Assembly: GCA_017937925.1 (NCBI GenBank)
Contig: JAGBCQ010000015.1
Span: forward strand, 1-44,169
Direction of reading: 5' to 3'
Origin: Paraprevotella sp.
GTDB lineage: Bacteria > Bacteroidota > Bacteroidia > Bacteroidales > Bacteroidaceae
DNA length: 44,169 nucleotides
Shown here: positions 37,711 to 44,169 of the stretch, piece after piece
Numbering within the stretch: the first letter of the stretch is position 1
Layout: the number at the start of each line of letters is the position of its first letter
Program-made: the position numbers and the translations under genes
Notes under the pieces: generated by a model
Told to the model about the DNA's origin: nothing
Databases searched by the model: none
What the model saw: only the letters and a program-made list of their open reading frames with translations

Positions 37711-38700
37711 TTAAAGTTTGCCTAATATTTGATCCATAACCCAGTTGACAGATGTTGCGCTAACGCTGTCGCAAGTGCAGACCGATTTTTTTTGCAGATG
37801 CTCTACGACATTTTTTATCAGTGGCAACTGAACGTGAGGCGGATTCTGTACCAATATTTCTTCGCGACCACGCTCAGTGTGGAGTGCAATAGGTTCGTAT
37901 GTGAATACAGAAAAGCAGATTTGACCTTTATCGCCGATAATCTCTATGCGGTCTGTCTTGGCAGATTCATGGGCTACGAAGCACCATGAACCGGAACCTG
38001 GCAATCCATCCGGAAATTGGAAACTGGCGCTGACACTATCTTCTGTGGCATAAAGACCTCCGCGATTGGTACAATAACCCTGTGCTTTGATGATAGGACC
38101 GAAAAATTCTTCGAGCAAATCAATCTGATGGGGAGCCAAGTCGTAAAAGTACCCTCCACCGGCGATGTCACGTTGTACGCGCCACGGCAGTTCGTTGCTG
38201 TTATAGTCAAGGTCGCGAGGCGGTACGGCAAAGCGTATCTGTACGTTAATGACACGACCGATAGCCCCTTGCTGTATGAGCTCTTTGACTTTAAGGAAGT
38301 AGGGTAGGCTTCGGCGATAGTATGCCACGAAACATGGTACACCGGTTTGTTGTGACACTCTGTTGATACGAGCGCAATCCTCATAACTTGCGGCGAGAGG
38401 TTTTTCTACGTACACCGGTTTGCCGGCTTTCATGGCCATGATAGCAAAAGTAGCGTGTGACGATGGCGGAGTGGCGATATATACAGCGTTCACGTCAGGG
38501 TCGTTAATCAACTCTTGTGCGTCCGTGTACCATTTTTTTATGTTGTGTCGTTCGGCATACGAGCGTGCTTTCTCTTTGTTACGACTCATGACCGCCTCGA
38601 TTTGAGAGCCACTGACCAAATTGAAAGCAGGACCGCTTTTCTTTTCGGTCACTTCACCGCAACCGATGAATCCCCATTTGATGACTTGTTCTGCACTCAT
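37711..38700 (-). CDS. Gfo/Idh/MocA family oxidoreductase
   Basis: 329 residues. NAD(P)-binding Rossmann start KWGFIGCGEVTEKKSGPAF, then VYIATPPSSH, EKPLAAS with the catalytic Lys (near 98) and APHQIDLLEEFFGP with the His near 183. Acts on a sugar or cyclitol; the substrate cannot be predicted. Promoter element TACTTTTG at 38726-38733. Confidence 0.93.
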   Translation of the reverse strand: MSAEQVIKWGFIGCGEVTEKKSGPAFNLVSGSQIEAVMSRNKEKARSYAERHNIKKWYTDAQELINDPDVNAVYIATPPSSHATFAIMAMKAGKPVYVEKPLAASYEDCARINRVSQQTGVPCFVAYYRRSLPYFLKVKELIQQGAIGRVINVQIRFAVPPRDLDYNSNELPWRVQRDIAGGGYFYDLAPHQIDLLEEFFGPIIKAQGYCTNRGGLYATEDSVSASFQFPDGLPGSGSWCFVAHESAKTDRIEIIGDKGQICFSVFTYEPIALHTERGREEILVQNPPHVQLPLIKNVVEHLQKKSVCTCDSVSATSVNWVMDQILGKL

Positions 38701-38725
38701 GCTTGTTATAATAAGATTCGTGACA

Positions 38726-38733
38726 CAAAAGTA
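38726..38733 (-). promoter_or_regulatory. -7 element of the Gfo/Idh/MocA operon
   Basis: TACTTTTG on the minus strand, exact consensus, 25 bases before the start codon. Confidence 0.5.
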
Positions 38734-38786
38734 ACAAAAAAAATACTAAATGTCTTGTTTTATGCCAAAGAGAACAGAAAAAGTGG

Positions 38787-38794
38787 TATTTTTG
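38787..38794 (+). promoter_or_regulatory. -7 element of the membrane protein gene
   Basis: TATTTTTG, exact consensus, 29 bases before the ATG at 38824; back to back with the divergent Gfo/Idh/MocA promoter. Confidence 0.5.
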
Positions 38795-38823
38795 CGTTGC
38801 TAACAATGATAATTCAATAAAGT

Positions 38824-39756
38824 ATGAGTGAACAGAAGTCCAATAAAACAGATATGGTAATATATAAGGTACGTACTTACCTGAGTTGTATGAATCAAGG
38901 TATAAAGTTACCGACACGTCACATTCTTGATTTGTCAAAGTACCTTATACCGTCGTTGTTGTGTAGTGCGTTTTTTGCCGTAGTAGTGTTGCTATTGTCA
39001 TATCTTTATCCGTTGCCCTTTTCACCCAAAGCACAGTTTGATTTCAACCTGACAAATATAATTCTTGCGGTGGTGTTCGTGACTTTAATGTTTGTTTTGT
39101 GTGAGGGTTGTTTCTTATCGCAATTGTTTCATGTGGTCTCCAAGTATGCCGAAGCCGGCAAATGGCAATCATTCACATGGAAGCAGTCAATGACTGAATG
39201 GCGTCGTTTCTATCCGAGAGTACTTTTATTCCTTGCGGTTGGTGTTTTGGTAACGGCATTGGTCAGTGTCCCGTTAATAGTTTGGTTGGGATTTGCCAAT
39301 ATTTGGGTTTACGTTCTGATCTTCGTTTGGTTTGTATTTGTGCTGATACCTTATACAATGGTAGGATGGGATTACTCACTTTCACACGACCGCAGTTTTT
39401 CCGGTAGTCTATTACGGATTAAGGAAGGTTATCGTTATTTTGGTTCTTATTCAGCTGTATGGTTGGTATGTGGACTGTTAACGCTTGCTATGTCATGTGT
39501 CGTGTGGTTGCCTTCCGTTATTCTTCTGTATGCTCAGCGTGCTTCAATGATGGGCGAATTTATGGGCGATGTGTCCGACCTACCTGGCATTTTGATTCCC
39601 CTTCTATTCTTACTTACAATGGTTTCTGCCCTTGTTGGTAAGTTGTTCTCGTGCTTGTTGTTCTTCCCCCTTACTTATTTGTATGGTTCTATAGTCACAA
39701 GGTGCAAGGAGGAAGCGAAATATGAGGAGGAAGAAAAAGGACTGACTGCGATTTAG
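38824..39756 (+). CDS. multi-pass membrane protein of unknown function
   Basis: 310 residues, about six membrane helices: 46-66, 80-100, 138-160, 165-182, 215-238 and 262-290 by hydrophobicity. The polar N-terminus (MSEQKSNKTDM) and acidic-basic C-terminus (RCKEEAKYEEEEKGL) are both cytosolic if six helices are right. No family is recognised. The repeated helix-pair look resembles integral membrane proteins of the YesL/DUF975 kind, a loose impression only. It ends 6 bases before a convergent small gene, leaving almost no room for a terminator. Confidence 0.8.
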   Translation: MSEQKSNKTDMVIYKVRTYLSCMNQGIKLPTRHILDLSKYLIPSLLCSAFFAVVVLLLSYLYPLPFSPKAQFDFNLTNIILAVVFVTLMFVLCEGCFLSQLFHVVSKYAEAGKWQSFTWKQSMTEWRRFYPRVLLFLAVGVLVTALVSVPLIVWLGFANIWVYVLIFVWFVFVLIPYTMVGWDYSLSHDRSFSGSLLRIKEGYRYFGSYSAVWLVCGLLTLAMSCVVWLPSVILLYAQRASMMGEFMGDVSDLPGILIPLLFLLTMVSALVGKLFSCLLFFPLTYLYGSIVTRCKEEAKYEEEEKGLTAI

Positions 39757-39762
39757 TGAGTT

Positions 39763-40017
39763 CTACTCGTCAAAAAGATGCTCGTAACAGTCCAAAAGTT
39801 GCGTGCTGACCTCCCAAATGTATTCATTCTCACTTCGACTCAGTTCGATAAGACCTTTATAGGCTTTTTCGGCTATGGCGATGTGGGATTCATCCTTGTT
39901 CGGTTGTTGCGCAATATACTCAAGCACTTCTCTATAAATGCTCAATGCCTCTTGATCGGAAAGTGTTTCCGCATATTCAAGTCTGCAGAAACACTCTTTT
40001 ATCTTATGCTCTTCCAT
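39763..40017 (-). CDS. small conserved-looking helical protein
   Basis: 84 residues, acidic and helical (IKECFCRLEYAETLSDQEAL, then YKGLIELSRSENEYIWEVS). The helix pattern resembles a couple of TPR-like hairpins but is too short to name. A TATCTTTG element lies 22 bases before the start (40040-40047), which supports a real gene. Function unknown. Confidence 0.6.
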   Translation of the reverse strand: MEEHKIKECFCRLEYAETLSDQEALSIYREVLEYIAQQPNKDESHIAIAEKAYKGLIELSRSENEYIWEVSTQLLDCYEHLFDE

Positions 40018-40039
40018 TGATATGAATGTTCTTACGAGG

Positions 40040-40047
40040 CAAAGATA
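40040..40047 (-). promoter_or_regulatory. -7 element of the small helical protein gene
   Basis: TATCTTTG on the minus strand, exact consensus, 22 bases before the ATG. Confidence 0.5.
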
Positions 40048-40087
40048 CTTCCATTAGTTCAAATAAACTATTTTTTGATGAAGATGA

Positions 40088-40543
40088 TTACATGTTTTTG
40101 ATGTAAAAATCATATAACGTTAAGTTCTTACATCTAAAATCCAACCATTGAAGATGTCCCCAAAAGATGAAGTATATCCAACTTGCTACCAGAAGTATTA
40201 TAAGCGCAGGCGATTTGTATTTATATGCTGCAATAGTAAGAATAATGCTGTAAATCCAAAAAATGGGCGACATGATGACATTTAGAGTTCCCCTGACATC
40301 AATGAAGAAAATAAATAACTCTGTCCAAAAGAACCCTGATATTATGAAGAAAGCAATTTCAAAACTATGTCCGATGAACTTCCTTAACATGATATAGGTC
40401 AACCCAATGTATAATAGTGCGCATAAAATGGTATTAAAACCAAAAGACAACATGTTGAGAGGGGCCATCGCCCAAAATATGAGTGATGAGCATAAGAAGA
40501 TTCTGATACCATCAATAACTTCAAAATTAGTTTTTCTTTTCAT
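40088..40543 (-). CDS. small multi-pass membrane protein, end of the regulator locus
   Basis: 151 residues with four or five membrane helices (about 15-32, 34-54, 62-82, 90-107, 111-130) and a C-terminal segment FWGHLQWLDFRC ahead of a short tail. No family recognised. It lies 166 bases after the TPR-HTH regulator on the same strand and has its own promoter (40583-40614). One copy of the AAATGCGAA element (40701-40711) overlaps the regulator stop codon upstream. It may belong to the same regulon; base composition is as AT-rich as the rest of the locus. Confidence 0.75.
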   Translation of the reverse strand: MKRKTNFEVIDGIRIFLCSSLIFWAMAPLNMLSFGFNTILCALLYIGLTYIMLRKFIGHSFEIAFFIISGFFWTELFIFFIDVRGTLNVIMSPIFWIYSIILTIAAYKYKSPALIILLVASWIYFIFWGHLQWLDFRCKNLTLYDFYIKNM

Positions 40544-40582
40544 AAGCGTACATTTAAATGTTTATAAATAATGATTTCACTG

Positions 40583-40614
40583 CAAAGTAAGTACATGATG
40601 TCAATGCAAACAAA
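40583..40614 (-). promoter_or_regulatory. promoter of the small membrane protein gene
   Basis: Minus strand: TTTG at 40611-40614, 20 bases, TTACTTTG at 40583-40590 (one mismatch to TAnnTTTG). Confidence 0.5.
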
Positions 40615-40700
40615 TTTTTTTGTTCTCATTTAAAGACGCTGGTATTTGTTCTAAGTGATTGTTTTATAGTGGGATATATAAGATGTTTCTGTTCTCTTAT

Positions 40701-40711
40701 ATTCGCATTTT
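40701..40711 (-). promoter_or_regulatory. AAATGCGAA element, copy 1
   Basis: AAAATGCGAAT on the minus strand, directly at the regulator stop codon. About 87 bases upstream of the next gene's -33, so the spacing differs from that of the two promoter-linked copies. Confidence 0.5.
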
Positions 40712-42053
40712 AATTTTCTTCCTTCGTAAGAATGTTGCTAAATTCATCCAAATACTCTAATTCCTCTTTAAGTCTTTTCTTTCGGGAAGACACGGAGTTG
40801 TTCTGAACGCACATCATTAGGGCGATGTCGGACGTGCGAACATCCAAACAGAATAAACAAATGTATGTTGCTTTGATAAGTTCGAGTTCAGTTGTCGCTT
40901 TTTCAATATGTAGCTTATTATATAATTTAGGAAAGCATAAACTGATTTCTTTTAAGAAAGAGGTTATATTTTCTCGATTTGTCAATAGACTCTTATAGTC
41001 ATCCTGATTTAGCTTATTGTGATTGCTTTTAGTCGGAATGAATCTTCCTATTTTCATTTCATGGAATTGGACGTTTCTTAATTCAATGCTCGTTTGAGTT
41101 ATTTGTGCTTGAATTTCAATGTTTCGATGTTTTAGGTAATTGATTTTATCTTTTAAGTTGTTGATTGCATTTGCCTTTTGGTTGAGTAGCTTTTTGTGTT
41201 TAAGTTTATTATATTTAAGTCTCTTACTGAACGTGATATATAAAAAACCGGAGAGTAGTAATACAATGGTAAAACAAGCAATGATGATATACGTTTGTGA
41301 GTATTTCAAATCATTTAGATACTCTTGCTCTTTAGATAACCATATTGTTTGGGCATGACGTGAATGTACTTCTAACCTCTCGTTCCATATACTATCTTGT
41401 AACAGAAAATATTCTTGAAGGATTGAGTTGTTTGTAGGGTGGCATAATGCAAGCAGTTTTAAGGCTTCACTTTTGAATATGATATTGTCTTGTTGGGATA
41501 TCTGTCGGAGTGTTGAAATCGTCTCAGTAGTTAGAACTTTGTTTTGTTCTAACTCATGGTGAGCTTGGGCGATGGTAAATTCCTCATACCAGCCATCAGT
41601 ATACTCATTATCTGCCCATTGGTGCTTTAGTGCAATTCCTTTGGCTTTTGTGGCTATGTTGAGTGCTTCCTCATAATCTCTTTTATATATGGCAATTGTT
41701 GTAAGATTGCGGTATGCTTGATACAGAACAGAGTCTAACTCATGTCGTTTTGCAATAACCAATAACTCGTTAAAATCATTTTTGGCATCATCGTAATAAT
41801 TCATTTTAAGCCATAATTTGCCACTATTTAAAAAGGCAGTTGTGTAATTCTCTACACTATCTTCGTAATATTGAGCAGAGGTTATCATACTACTATAAAT
41901 AATGAGTGCTTCACTCCATCTTTCTTCTTTTTCTAGGAATAGAGCATCCTCAATATACCATTTAGGTAATAAATCTCTTTCCTCATCTTGCTCACAAGCA
42001 AAAAAGAGAGGTATAAGAACAACGAGAAGTAATAGTTTTATGCAGTTTTTCAT
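40710..42053 (-). CDS. membrane-spanning TPR one-component regulator with HTH
   Basis: 447 residues. A lipoprotein-like signal IPLFFAC (Cys20), then a TPR-like helical domain (about 35-235), one membrane helix TYIIIACFTIVLLLSGFLY (254-272), a basic stretch and a coiled coil (278-330), and a C-terminal helix-turn-helix (about 390-432: TYICLFCLDVRTSDIALMM and NNSVSSRKKRLKEEL). Periplasmic sensing by TPRs with direct DNA binding in the cytosol is the layout of a Bacteroidetes family of TPR-containing regulators; I know the layout, not a target. It overlaps the upstream membrane-protein stop by 4 bases. The AAATGCGAA elements in the locus are natural candidates for its binding sites (inference). 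Confidence 0.82.
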   Translation of the reverse strand: MKNCIKLLLLVVLIPLFFACEQDEERDLLPKWYIEDALFLEKEERWSEALIIYSSMITSAQYYEDSVENYTTAFLNSGKLWLKMNYYDDAKNDFNELLVIAKRHELDSVLYQAYRNLTTIAIYKRDYEEALNIATKAKGIALKHQWADNEYTDGWYEEFTIAQAHHELEQNKVLTTETISTLRQISQQDNIIFKSEALKLLALCHPTNNSILQEYFLLQDSIWNERLEVHSRHAQTIWLSKEQEYLNDLKYSQTYIIIACFTIVLLLSGFLYITFSKRLKYNKLKHKKLLNQKANAINNLKDKINYLKHRNIEIQAQITQTSIELRNVQFHEMKIGRFIPTKSNHNKLNQDDYKSLLTNRENITSFLKEISLCFPKLYNKLHIEKATTELELIKATYICLFCLDVRTSDIALMMCVQNNSVSSRKKRLKEELEYLDEFSNILTKEEN

Positions 42054-43195
42054 TTTAGTACGTTTTCATTAAGAAATAATTGTGTTTCCTCTATGCTGTT
42101 TTGGTATATGATTGTATCGTTTTTGAAAATGCAAATTATCGAGCTTTCAGGAAAGAAATCAAAGTCCTTCCAAAATTTTTTAGGATTCTCAACATTAAGC
42201 AATGGTACGTGATAATGATCATTGGCATGTACCTTAAATGGGTCTTCAATACCTCTTTCTTTATTTTCTTTTCTTTCAACATTCAGTATCCAAAAAGAAT
42301 ACTTTGTATAGGTATAGCTGAGTTTTTCAAAACGCAGAATATTATAATAGACATTAGAATTAACAATGTCATCAATAAAACAAATTTTATATGGTTCGTT
42401 ATATTCACTAAAATTTTTGGTTTCGCCAAGTTCATTAGTGACGTTAAATGAGAATACTTTTTCAGTTTTTCCCCAAATACTTCCATATTCAAAGTATGTA
42501 ATGATAAATCTCGTTAAATATAGAGAACACCAAACGATAATCCCTAATATAATAGGAATGCTAATGTAAATCAATACTTTGTTACCTTTGATATAATGCA
42601 AGATTACTCCAATTGTATAGCCAACAAATAATAAACAATATCTAGAGAATGCGTATGCATATTTTACTGAAAAATTATTCCATAACCATCCTCCGGTTTC
42701 TATTGTAGTAATAATTATAGGTAGGATCATCCCAATCGATAATGGTATGATGATTCTTTTTAATTGATGCCTTTTATTCTTGAGGAATTTTTCTATCCAA
42801 TAGGATATAATAATAGCTGATGCAACTATGACGCAAAATGAGTATGTTATTTCACTCTTAGTGTGAAATTCTCCTATTATAGTGGTGAAAAACAAAGGAG
42901 TTAATGTACATATTTCGCTTAAAAAAGCATCAATTCGTCGTGCTTTATTTAGGAAACTGACAACAAATAGCGCTCCTATTAAGATAAGATAGACATGCAA
43001 TTCACCAATGATTCTTAACCAATGAAATTCTATGTGAATGAATCTCATCGAAAGATACAATATCCAAATTGCGATTGAATAGAAGAAAAACTTATAACCC
43101 AATTTATTTTTCAAGTATTCCATTGCATGGGAAATAAAAAGCCATATCACATGATTTTTGTGCATTACAATCACTTTTCTTACATTGTCTATCAT
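42050..43195 (-). CDS. multi-TM protein with possible thioredoxin-like C-terminal domain
   Basis: 381 residues. About seven membrane helices up to residue 232 (33-53, 60-83, 95-110, 117-137, 148-166, 183-202, 207-230), then a soluble domain (245-381). The soluble part reads like a TlpA/thioredoxin fold: FSFNVTNELGETKNFSEY, then EPYKICFIDDI where the CxxC would be, then YSFWILNVERKE, and finally FFPESSIICIFKNDTIIYQ, similar to the cis-Pro/IDxxGxI strand. The redox CxxC is missing, so it would bind rather than reduce. Fold by pattern only. It starts 3 bases after the 48-codon peptide gene and overlaps the regulator start by 4 bases. Confidence 0.75.
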   Translation of the reverse strand: MIDNVRKVIVMHKNHVIWLFISHAMEYLKNKLGYKFFFYSIAIWILYLSMRFIHIEFHWLRIIGELHVYLILIGALFVVSFLNKARRIDAFLSEICTLTPLFFTTIIGEFHTKSEITYSFCVIVASAIIISYWIEKFLKNKRHQLKRIIIPLSIGMILPIIITTIETGGWLWNNFSVKYAYAFSRYCLLFVGYTIGVILHYIKGNKVLIYISIPIILGIIVWCSLYLTRFIITYFEYGSIWGKTEKVFSFNVTNELGETKNFSEYNEPYKICFIDDIVNSNVYYNILRFEKLSYTYTKYSFWILNVERKENKERGIEDPFKVHANDHYHVPLLNVENPKKFWKDFDFFPESSIICIFKNDTIIYQNSIEETQLFLNENVLK

Positions 43196-43198
43196 TTC

Positions 43199-43345
43199 CT
43201 ATATAACATCACAATCTTTATTTTGAGAGGTTTCCGATTTACTAGAATTTCTCTCAATAATAAACGTTTCATAATTGCCTTCTTTATCTAGCATGGTGTG
43301 TCCTCCAAACCACACAGTAAAGTATAAAATCGCTAAATTTCTCAT
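43199..43345 (-). CDS. 48-residue peptide gene with Gly-Gly motif, first in the regulator operon
   Basis: Minus-strand ORF from ATG at 43345-43343 to TAG at 43201-43199. The N-terminal part is hydrophobic (MRNLAILYFTVWFGG, Gly-Gly at 14-15); the rest is polar and acidic (LDKEGNYETFIIERNSS, ending NKDCDVI) with a single Cys at 45. It lies 21 bases after a consensus -7 element and 3 bases before the next gene, exactly where the first gene of the operon should be. An in-frame inner ATG (43294-43292), preceded by GGAGGA, would give a 31-residue form without the leader; the Gly-Gly codons themselves make that Shine-Dalgarno. Secreted/processed peptide or leader peptide are both possible. No homology is known to me. 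Confidence 0.5.
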   Translation of the reverse strand: MRNLAILYFTVWFGGHTMLDKEGNYETFIIERNSSKSETSQNKDCDVI

Positions 43346-43365
43346 TCAGTTGCTGAATTTTAGTG

Positions 43366-43397
43366 CAAAATTAGACAGACAAACTTAATCTTCCAAA
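43366..43397 (-). promoter_or_regulatory. promoter of the peptide-membrane protein-regulator operon
   Basis: Minus strand: TTTG at 43394-43397, 20 bases, TAATTTTG at 43366-43373, both exact. An AAATGCGAA element (43406-43414) lies exactly 8 bases upstream of the TTTG. Confidence 0.7.
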
Positions 43398-43404
43398 GAA
43401 TTTT

Positions 43405-43415
43405 ATTCGCATTTT
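43405..43415 (-). promoter_or_regulatory. AAATGCGAA element, copy 2
   Basis: AAAATGCGAAT on the minus strand, 8 bases upstream of the -33 box of the peptide operon. The position is typical for an activator contacting RNA polymerase. Confidence 0.6.
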
Positions 43416-43481
43416 AATTGTCTTCAAAATTAGTAAGACGTTGGATATTAGTTAGATATAAAAATATAAATCTGTTTGAAT

Positions 43482-43492
43482 ATTCGCATTTT
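43482..43492 (-). promoter_or_regulatory. AAATGCGAA element, copy 3
   Basis: AAAATGCGAAT on the minus strand, 77 bases from copy 2. No promoter at matching distance. Confidence 0.5.
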
Positions 43493-43566
43493 CATTTTAT
43501 GATGTAAAAAATCGTTTCTTGTTTATCTCCGATGTCCGAAGTGAGGATTGCAAGGACGTTATTTAT

Positions 43567-43577
43567 AAAATGCGAAT
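43567..43577 (+). promoter_or_regulatory. AAATGCGAA element, copy 4
   Basis: AAAATGCGAAT on the plus strand, 85 bases from copy 3. No promoter at matching distance. Confidence 0.5.
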
Positions 43578-43644
43578 AAGAAAAAAACGGCATAAAGTTA
43601 TAACTGCCTGTAACATAGTTGTATATCGATTAAATACTGATGAT

Positions 43645-43655
43645 GAAATGCGAAC
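43645..43655 (+). promoter_or_regulatory. AAATGCGAA element, copy 5
   Basis: GAAATGCGAAC on the plus strand, 78 bases from copy 4. The core 43646-43654 ends exactly 8 bases before the TTTG of the lipoprotein promoter, mirroring copy 2. Confidence 0.55.
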
Positions 43656-43662
43656 AAAAATA

Positions 43663-43694
43663 TTTGGAATAATCCTATAGATAGTTGAATTTTG
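43663..43694 (+). promoter_or_regulatory. promoter of the short lipoprotein gene
   Basis: TTTG at 43663-43666, 20 bases, GAATTTTG at 43687-43694 (one mismatch). The ATG at 43727 follows 32 bases later. Confidence 0.55.
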
Positions 43695-43726
43695 TACCCG
43701 AATATAATTAATAAATAAAAATACCT

Positions 43727-44032
43727 ATGAGAACATTATTATTACTCTGTTTGTTATCCTTAGTCTTTTGTTCATGCAATGATTTAAGAGTAAACGGTGT
43801 GCTTAAAAATGCCGGTAAAAATAGAAGTGAGTTTGAAACCGTATTACGGCATTATGAGAATGAACCGATGAAACTACAAGCAGCACGTTTCCTTATTGAA
43901 AATATGGACGTGCATTATTCACATGGAGGTGATGCCGTTGATGAATACAATAAATACATCGATAGTGTCTTTACACACTGCAACGGAGATAGAGCATTTT
44001 GGATAATGAAGTATGATACAATTTTGAGTTAA
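43727..44032 (+). CDS. short lipoprotein resembling the N-terminal module of transglutaminase-like proteins
   Basis: 101 residues. Lipoprotein signal LSLVFCSC (Cys17). The body NRSEFETVLRHYENEPMKLQAARFLIENMDVHYS is, from memory, the N-terminal helical segment of large Bacteroidetes transglutaminase-like lipoproteins. Here the reading frame stops at 101 residues and no continuation is seen in other frames before the next gene. It is either a free-standing paralogue or a truncated remnant. It is driven by the promoter with AAATGCGAA copy 5 and faces away from the regulator operon. Confidence 0.72.
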   Translation: MRTLLLLCLLSLVFCSCNDLRVNGVLKNAGKNRSEFETVLRHYENEPMKLQAARFLIENMDVHYSHGGDAVDEYNKYIDSVFTHCNGDRAFWIMKYDTILS

Positions 44033-44053
44033 CTTATTTATTTTCTACATTTG
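44023..44053 (+). promoter_or_regulatory. promoter of the partial lipoprotein at the window end
   Basis: TTTG at 44023-44026, 19 bases, TACATTTG at 44046-44053, an exact consensus. The -33 lies within the last codons of the preceding gene. Confidence 0.55.
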
Positions 44054-44106
44054 TACTATTAGTAAGCGGATTAGTAATAAGTTATTATTTGAATTAAGAT
44101 AATGAA

Positions 44107-44169
44107 ATGAAAGTAATAGCATGTTTATGTCTCTTCATATTATACTCTTCTTGTCTCAAGAGTAGTCAA
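44107..44169 (+). CDS. lipoprotein, N-terminal part (runs off the window)
   Basis: The frame from ATG at 44107 reads 21 residues to the window edge: a short basic start (MKVIA), a hydrophobic core and a lipobox-like end (FILYSSC, Cys16), then LKSS. An ATG at 44102 stops after one further codon and is excluded. A consensus promoter at 44023-44053 supports it. Too short to assign; it may be the next member of the same lipoprotein group. Confidence 0.6.
   Translation, partial: MKVIACLCLFILYSSCLKSSQ

Follow-up and report, generated by a model that had tools for sequence, protein, structure and literature searches.

Background

SusR of Bacteroides is a membrane one-component regulator, a single protein that has its sensor part outside and its DNA-binding part inside. 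The same one-protein plan is predicted for REG, the product of the tetratricopeptide repeat-helix-turn-helix (TPR-HTH) regulator gene of a Paraprevotella sp. locus, which differs from the SusR type by its TPR-type sensor and by a candidate two-site operator beside the -33 promoter box. The window analysed here is the whole stretch of DNA, 44,169 nucleotides long, and is the entire contig C10 (JAGBCQ010000015.1) of the genome G000 (GCA_017937925.1), an assembly of 33 contigs that is 78.6% complete. The membrane protein gene neighbouring REG is named MEM. The locus is probably an eroded copy of an envelope operon in which REG acts as a membrane one-component regulator on pairs of operators, with MEM as its partner. 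An earlier sequence-only reading had proposed a signalling locus made of a peptide, a membrane protein and this regulator; its structural observation was confirmed in part and its interpretation was partly supported.

Three described families lie close to the genes of the locus. MEM has a thioredoxin-like domain in common with the TlpA/ResA thiol-disulfide oxidoreductases, a likeness established via homologues, but MEM of Paraprevotella is without the active-site CxxC and is fused to a membrane part. The gene that precedes MEM in relatives is a member of the fulvocin C-related proteins (NF033852), of which the window holds the C-terminal third, fused and frame-broken. The TPR proteins of the BT3442 family (NF053779) have a C-terminal part related to REG, although the REG relatives score far below the family cut-off. 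For BT_3442 itself, a TPR protein, a putative operon shared with a MACPF protein has been described, and the accessible part of that report gives no operator or regulatory role (PMC2954219). Promoters with -33 and -7 boxes, the latter of the form TANNTTTGY, are described for Bacteroides (PMC12632263). The literature search returned nothing on this REG/operator system and no operator in print for TPR-HTH membrane proteins.

Paired elements at the promoters

The MEM-REG operon is preceded by one promoter of the Bacteroides type, TTTG-N20-TAATTTTG, on the minus strand (-33 box 43394-43397, -7 box TAATTTTG 43366-43373). The element AAATGCGAA stands 8 nt before this -33 box (proximal candidate operator, 43406..43414, minus strand) and again 77 bp further upstream (distal, 43483..43491, minus strand). 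The promoter of the divergent lipoprotein gene, on the plus strand, carries the same pair at the same place, with the proximal AAATGCGAA at 43646..43654, the -33 TTTG at 43663-43666, a -7-like box GAATTTTG at 43687-43694 and the distal AAATGCGAA at 43568..43576, 78 bp upstream. A third pair belongs to the promoter of a 151-aa open reading frame (ORF) on the minus strand; here the proximal element is AAATGAGAA (40623..40631), the -33 TTTG lies at 40611-40614, the -7-like box TTACTTTG at 40583-40590, and the distal AAATGCGAA (40702..40710), 79 bp upstream, overlaps the last base of the REG ORF. All these operators are candidates from their placing in the sequence, and their common word, which lies 7 nt upstream of the -33 box, is TGCGAAY (TGAGAAC in one copy). 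The repeated elements of the sequence-only reading are present, but rather than simply flanking the gene set they form oriented pairs at fixed positions ahead of three promoters. The single promoter of the operon and a lipoprotein gene diverging from the common intergenic region (381 bases) were likewise found as that reading had described them.

The genome G000 has four promoters with the proximal word and a second copy, at 77, 78, 79 and 79 bp, three of them in the window and one on contig C25; two of the four -7 boxes are consensus and two are off by one base. The C25 promoter (L051 1638-1765) has a 79-bp pair and a consensus -7 box, and lies ahead of a gene for a 221-aa membrane protein (1806-2471) that has a 217-aa relative in the G014 cluster (27.8%, E 3e-9). 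The pattern ATTCGCATTTTNATT occurs exactly three times in G000, always in the locus, with a one-mismatch copy on C25 (reversed control pattern, one occurrence). All five exact copies of AAATGCGAA in the window fall within this locus; at one mismatch it is not enriched in the window, with 22 found against 20.2 expected and as many in 35 of 100 shuffles. The feature above chance is the placing of the elements and not the abundance of the word. The other four word-N8-TTTG matches of G000 (C6, C12, C12 and C13) have no -7 box and no distal copy within two mismatches at 60-100 bp (best 2 of 9 mismatches at 56 bp, otherwise 3-4).

The composite pattern (word, N7, TTTG, N19-21, TAnnTTTG) was present in all seven Paraprevotella genomes with REG (G000 2, G001 1, G008 6, G010 5, G013 2, G014 1 and G017 4 matches) and in one of the five without MEM, while none of the 12 genomes had a match to the reversed control. 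REG was searched for and not found in four of these five genomes, G004 being outside that search. The sole match without REG (G002) has distal words only at two mismatches. The elements persist across the genus with changed letters. When a -33-like box and a -7 box by a loose definition are required, and the degenerate -33 elements (e.g. before the ligase gene in G017 and G010) are left outside the count, all 24 proximal elements have a distal copy (18 loci, seven genomes). The spacings are 65 (7), 66, 75 (2), 76 (4), 77 (2), 78, 79 (2), 86 (4) and 87 bp, and three extra distal matches lie at 48, 80 and 98. The chance of a distal word 62-90 bp upstream of a random position is 0.83% (370/44834). 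A word-free test found the pair at 17 of 35 promoter-like sites against 2/35 and 2/35 in controls, some promoters being counted twice as TTTGG gives two registers. The spacings are periodic at 10.5 bp (R 0.80-0.82, P 0.00025 or less against a uniform 62-90; R 0.80 and P 0.00025 come from one value per genome and distance).

REG and MEM

REG (40710..42053, minus strand) shows a lipobox-type N-terminus, a TPR-like domain, a transmembrane (TM) segment at about 249-267, a coiled coil and an HTH-like C-terminal end. Its Cys20 is invariant in 7/7, and the TM at about 250-275 is present in all seven; the window protein has a further hydrophobic stretch (398-416) within the HTH-like part. The TPR-like region was recognised by profile matches to TPR structures (best E 3.7e-5), with single-protein Pfam matches below cut-off. 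The lipobox and TPR part is predicted to lie outside and the HTH inside. The REG profile detected six loci in named genomes, all of Paraprevotella and including P. clara YIT 11840 and P. xylaniphila YIT 11841. NF053779 matched REG of G017 (4e-13), G013 (4e-9) and G010 (3e-7), and that of G055, a genome of another genus, at only 0.14; the bit scores of the Paraprevotella and G055 relatives (10.8-48.9) are below the curated cut-off of 940.

The ORF of MEM (42050..43195, minus strand; 381 codons) has a C-terminal TlpA/ResA-like thioredoxin domain without CxxC, as given by profiles of homologues. The starts in relatives place its likely start at about 43123 (357 aa), which gives 17 bases of overlap with the old lipoprotein tail, the stop codon excluded. 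Of the chain of ORFs with gaps or overlaps of 3-4 bases that had been reported, the 4-base overlap of MEM and REG stands, while the 3-base gap between peptide and MEM hinges on the longest-ORF start. MEM adjoins REG in 7/7 Paraprevotella genomes with REG, and G055 has two such pairs. The MEM profile detected 9 of 399 genomes of the family, and a single-sequence query 7 of 200 relatives, own genome counted.

That the membrane protein is thioredoxin-like was borne out only through homologues. A 12-member MEM profile including CxxC-bearing proteins of G200 matched 2lja, ResA and TlpA chains (best E 1.4e-6), thioredoxin-type Pfam matches were found in 3-4 of the 12 members, and the Paraprevotella MEM aligned at E 3e-9 with these G200 proteins, which are TlpA-like membrane proteins. 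The Paraprevotella-only profile gave no related structure, and the window MEM alone no significant Pfam match. CxxC at the aligned active-site position is found in 0/7 Paraprevotella MEM (two have CxxC elsewhere) and in 3/3 from G200.

The other genes of the proposed ancestral operon are seen in relatives. The gene ahead of MEM in G017, G013 and G055 encodes a 216-219-residue lipoprotein of the fulvocin C-related family (NF033852 matches of L002, L004 and L005 with E 1e-20, 8e-18 and 8e-26; relatives 65.7-91.7 bits against a cut-off of 35). A ligase-like protein (Wzy_C, PF04932) is encoded upstream of the lipoprotein gene (68-73 bits against a cut-off of 31.7, two scanned). The four-gene operon is intact in two Paraprevotella relatives and in G055; in G010 the fulvocin-related lipoprotein ends one contig and MEM begins another.

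The strongest competing explanation places MEM outside signalling, as a maturation factor left over from the Cys-rich lipoprotein, now lost, and it is given somewhat less than an even chance. It is in accordance with the G200 homologues, where MEM-like proteins with CxxC stand beside fulvocin-related and ligase-like genes, and with contig C56 of G008, where a second MEM copy lies between a fulvocin-related lipoprotein gene and a ligase with no adjoining REG. It is opposed by the loss of the active-site CxxC from every Paraprevotella MEM, which is nevertheless kept beside REG where the lipoprotein has been lost or replaced (together with the ligase in G000, G001 and contig C47 of G008; lipoprotein only in G014).

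The G200 cluster (L050 7144-14913) encodes a large lipoprotein related to the divergent one of the window, a DUF1573-like protein (by eye), a fulvocin C-related lipoprotein (178 bits), three paralogous CxxC membrane TlpA-like proteins (HCGYC and WCGIC among their motifs) and a ligase-like protein; no REG was recognised there.

Candidate operator word and HTH class in two genera

The letters of the word follow the HTH class of the regulator. TGTCAAC is found in exactly G001, G008, G010 and G017, whose HTH ends SKRR.RI or SKKRIRI, and TGCGAAY or TGCAAAC in G000, G014 and G013, with the ends SSRKKRL, SSRRKRL and SCRRKRL. The HTH domains of the TGTCAAC genomes form one clade (98-99%).

A swap of REG domains was considered, as the MEM tree groups G001, G008, G013 and G014 (100%), and the HTH and word group is G001, G008, G010 and G017. 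No swap is claimed, because neither grouping is rejected by the REG N-terminal tree (approximately unbiased (AU) test, 0.113), and the case of the HTH tree against the MEM-like one is only weak (AU 0.041, Shimodaira-Hasegawa (SH) test 0.064).

A generic pair search of 20 loci outside Paraprevotella found the pair at 1 of 29 promoter-like sites (controls 2 and 0), and this match led to g3, the genus of G048, which is separate from Paraprevotella. In G048, TGTCCGT-N7-TTTG-N20-TACTTTTG comes after a TPR-HTH gene, and the second copy of the word lies 68 bp upstream. The REG alignment and three g3 regulators align with hhalign E 4e-15 over 383 columns, so that the TPR-TM-HTH layout is homologous; one of these three, the single g3 regulator scanned, also gave 79 bits with NF053779 (E 3e-22), likewise below its cut-off. 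The exact pair was present at 7 of 30 g3 regulator loci, always directly after the regulator gene, and controls with shifted offset or other distance gave 0, 1, 0 and 0. A pair with no more than one mismatch was present at 11/30 loci, of which L143 and L158 were set aside, their words and boxes being unlike the rest. Relatives of the TPR-HTH membrane proteins were detected in 31 of 60 genomes of g3 and in 14 of 295 across the order (strict profile). The TPR part of the G048 protein (L120 8572-10212) also matches a FimS sensor kinase model (E 1.5e-7).

The pattern TGTCCRW-N58-85-TGTCCRW-N7-TTTG gave 54 matches in 33 of the 158 genomes of the g3 search, whereas its reversed control gave 15. The N7 offset was fixed in this pattern, but the same offset also came out with 6-8 allowed. 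Inspection of all 54 matches showed a -7 box in 31, every one at N20 with 19-21 allowed, and many of these promoters are from related genomes and are not independent. Their spacings are 65, 67 (2), 68 (3), 75, 77, 79 (3), 80 (16) and 89 (4). The 23 matches without a -7 box have 54% AT against 73% and other spacings, chiefly 84 and 86. Fourteen of the 31 promoters come directly after the 3' end of a TPR-HTH gene; the other 17 are placed elsewhere. For the linked pairs the HTH and the word agree in 14/14 (INKRRERI with TGTCCGT, ISKRK with TGTCCAA; closely related genomes are among them).

Five proteins downstream of g3 promoters were scanned, giving one DUF3244 (E 2e-14) and four without a Pfam family. 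The genes with a TGTCCAA pair and no regulator in front (L189, L190, L192, L199, L201, L202, L210-L212) encode related proteins of about 96-195 aa (…DFSQLSRIQ…ECANYL…), and the three of these products that were scanned matched no Pfam family. Such genes are a possible trans regulon of the g3 regulators.

Several points weigh against REG as the protein reading these pairs. REG was found in only seven Paraprevotella genomes, and its N-terminal tree is not in conflict with the HTH tree (AU 0.113), because of which shared ancestry could explain the agreement of HTH and word. The words and distal classes were set per genome after inspection. The HTH was recognised by pattern and by a sub-threshold GerE match in one relative (12.5 bits), and the window REG has no NF053779 match. 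Outside Paraprevotella, the pair with a full promoter was found at 1 of 19 regulator loci (17 distant and two of G055), no such promoter lying near either MEM-REG pair of G055. With one mismatch allowed, g3 has the pair at 9 of 30 loci; these fall into three types of word, and each type goes with a distinct HTH end. The g3 periodicity (R 0.76, compared with 0.45 where no -7 box follows) comes largely from a single peak at 80 bp, which holds 16 of the 31 promoters. Reading the spacings as whole numbers of helical turns was dropped; the class means are 65.1, 76.7 and 86.2 in Paraprevotella and 67.2, 79.5 and 89.0 in g3, so the start-to-start spacings are not multiples of 10.5 bp and only the steps between classes are near one turn, and binding on the same face does not follow from them.

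The elements may instead be operators of another DNA-binding protein encoded elsewhere, with REG merely clustered with them. Since the cluster genes, REG and the elements are gained and lost together, the distribution of the elements alone does not single out REG, and the bare G055 pairs also fit this explanation. It is considered unlikely in view of the word identity, which tracks the HTH class in both genera, and of the pair directly after the regulator gene in both.

The short ORF ahead of MEM

In double-glycine leader peptides, the GG ends the cleavable leader of a dedicated peptide. The sequence-only reading had taken the 48-aa ORF ahead of MEM (43199..43345, minus strand) for such a peptide and as the possible signal. 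Profile comparison revealed that its residues 1-15 match the N-terminus of the Wzy_C ligase-like protein (16.0 bits; best of 2062 background fragments 5.7) and residues 9-46 match positions 147-184 of the fulvocin C-related lipoprotein (21.7 bits; best of 2062 background fragments 4.9). The lipoprotein profile continues out of frame in a six-Cys C-terminal tail (43107..43208, minus strand; positions 185-217, 10.0 bits, background best 4.9). With both matches in the one ORF and the tail in another frame, the ORF is, on these profile matches, a deletion fusion of two genes with a frame break and not a peptide gene. Judged from the profile positions, the losses amount to about 0.4 kb of the lipoprotein gene, its lipobox included, and about 1.5 kb of the ligase gene. 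The GG-leader assignment was rejected, the GG being inside the match to the ligase N-terminus, where W(F/L)G(G/S) is found in 5/6 relatives (N-termini reading like M...YFxxWFGG in 5/6). The peptide is thus not upheld as the signal, and it is absent from otherwise conserved loci, where the intact slot has the full ligase and the 216-219-residue lipoprotein.

NF033852 matched neither the window peptide nor, in a family search, anything in G000. The PF04932 domain is not intact in the window, where only about the first 15 residues of the ligase-like protein remain, and no other ligase copy was found in the incomplete G000. Contig C47 of G008 has a short ORF (L092 8615-8902) that keeps a ligase-like N-terminus ahead of MEM (13.5 bits), apparently a second erosion of the same slot. 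The slot holds an unrelated 162-residue lipoprotein-like ORF in G014 and a 654-residue protein in G001.

A working short membrane-anchored peptide, with the frame break due to a sequencing or assembly error or bypassed, is quite improbable. The ORF does have a complete promoter with an operator pair, its Cys-rich tail is still recognisable, and the assembly is fragmented and incomplete. Against these stand the single Cys left in the ORF as sequenced, the extent of the loss from both genes, and the separate remnant in G008. No second assembly of the species was found, in a search that may leave out the window's own genome.

Proposed regulation

A reading of the elements as leftovers of promoter duplication or of a small mobile repeat, without regulatory meaning, would suit several copies in a single locus, but it is very hard to maintain, as the spacers of the G000 promoters are 33% alike (39% at the best shift, little above chance) against 89% agreement of the proximal words, the offset to the -33 box is fixed, and the distances between copies in Paraprevotella fall into classes about a helical turn apart, in a layout that recurs in another genus with another word.

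On the preferred explanation, the ancestral operon would have encoded the ligase-like protein, the Cys-rich lipoprotein, MEM and REG, with MEM-REG as its stable core and the peptide ORF as a deletion scar behind a still complete promoter. REG, with lipobox and TPR outside, one TM and the HTH inside, would bind the word 7 nt upstream of -33 and the copy 77-79 bp further up. Its regulon would comprise at least four promoters, namely those of its own operon (autoregulation), the divergent lipoprotein, the 151-aa membrane protein and the 221-aa C25 membrane protein. The same pair of elements at all four makes it probable that REG switches the operon and the divergent lipoprotein, as the sequence-only reading had held. 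Since the proximal site adjoins the -33 box but leaves it uncovered, and this layout is kept, activation appears more likely than repression. Spacing classes about one helical turn apart suggest that the two bound units must keep their relative orientation, and the sites would probably act together, by looping or by an oligomer held at the membrane. MEM is the likely partner that would relay or restrain an envelope signal.

Other features of the locus

The 151-aa membrane protein (40088..40543, minus strand), a putative regulon member, is related to a 161-aa protein encoded after a fulvocin-related gene in G010 (37.7% over 146 aa, E 2e-25). A lipoprotein remnant was looked for upstream of its ORF and none was found. 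The divergent lipoprotein (43727..44032, plus strand; 101 aa) is probably truncated, because it matches only the N-terminal part of relatives of 341 to 658 residues. Its match to the 658-aa lipoprotein is 45.6% over 79 aa (E 4e-18), and that relative has an F5/8-type-C domain and a sub-threshold transglutaminase-core match. A second lipoprotein-like ORF starts at 44107 (44107..44169, plus strand) and is cut by the contig end at 44169. The neighbours of the locus, a 310-aa membrane protein (38824-39756) and an 84-aa ORF (39763-40017), gave no significant family match. No Rfam family was found in 38000-44169, and no match in plasmids or phages. Viral contigs gave nine pattern matches but no relative, and the stretch at the fusion junction had no exact match there.

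Conclusion

The locus gives the caution that a deletion can leave behind, as its scar, a neat short ORF that has a perfect promoter. Tentatively, and with the balance tilted a little towards doubt, the membrane TPR-HTH proteins of Bacteroidales may form a wide family of one-component envelope-to-DNA regulators sharing an operator grammar, and the pseudo-TlpA of Paraprevotella may be a signalling partner that outlived its Cys-rich lipoprotein operon. In this grammar, a regulator-specific 7-base word beginning with TG would stand exactly 7 nt upstream of -33, with the HTH helix predicting the word, and a second copy would lie about 65-68, 75-80 or 86-89 bp upstream, in steps of about one helical turn. 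The preferred spacings point to two-site cooperation, possibly via a membrane-held protein, and the HTH-to-word code could be probed by swapping. Such a fixed and readable operator layout would make regulons callable from sequence in gut bacteria.

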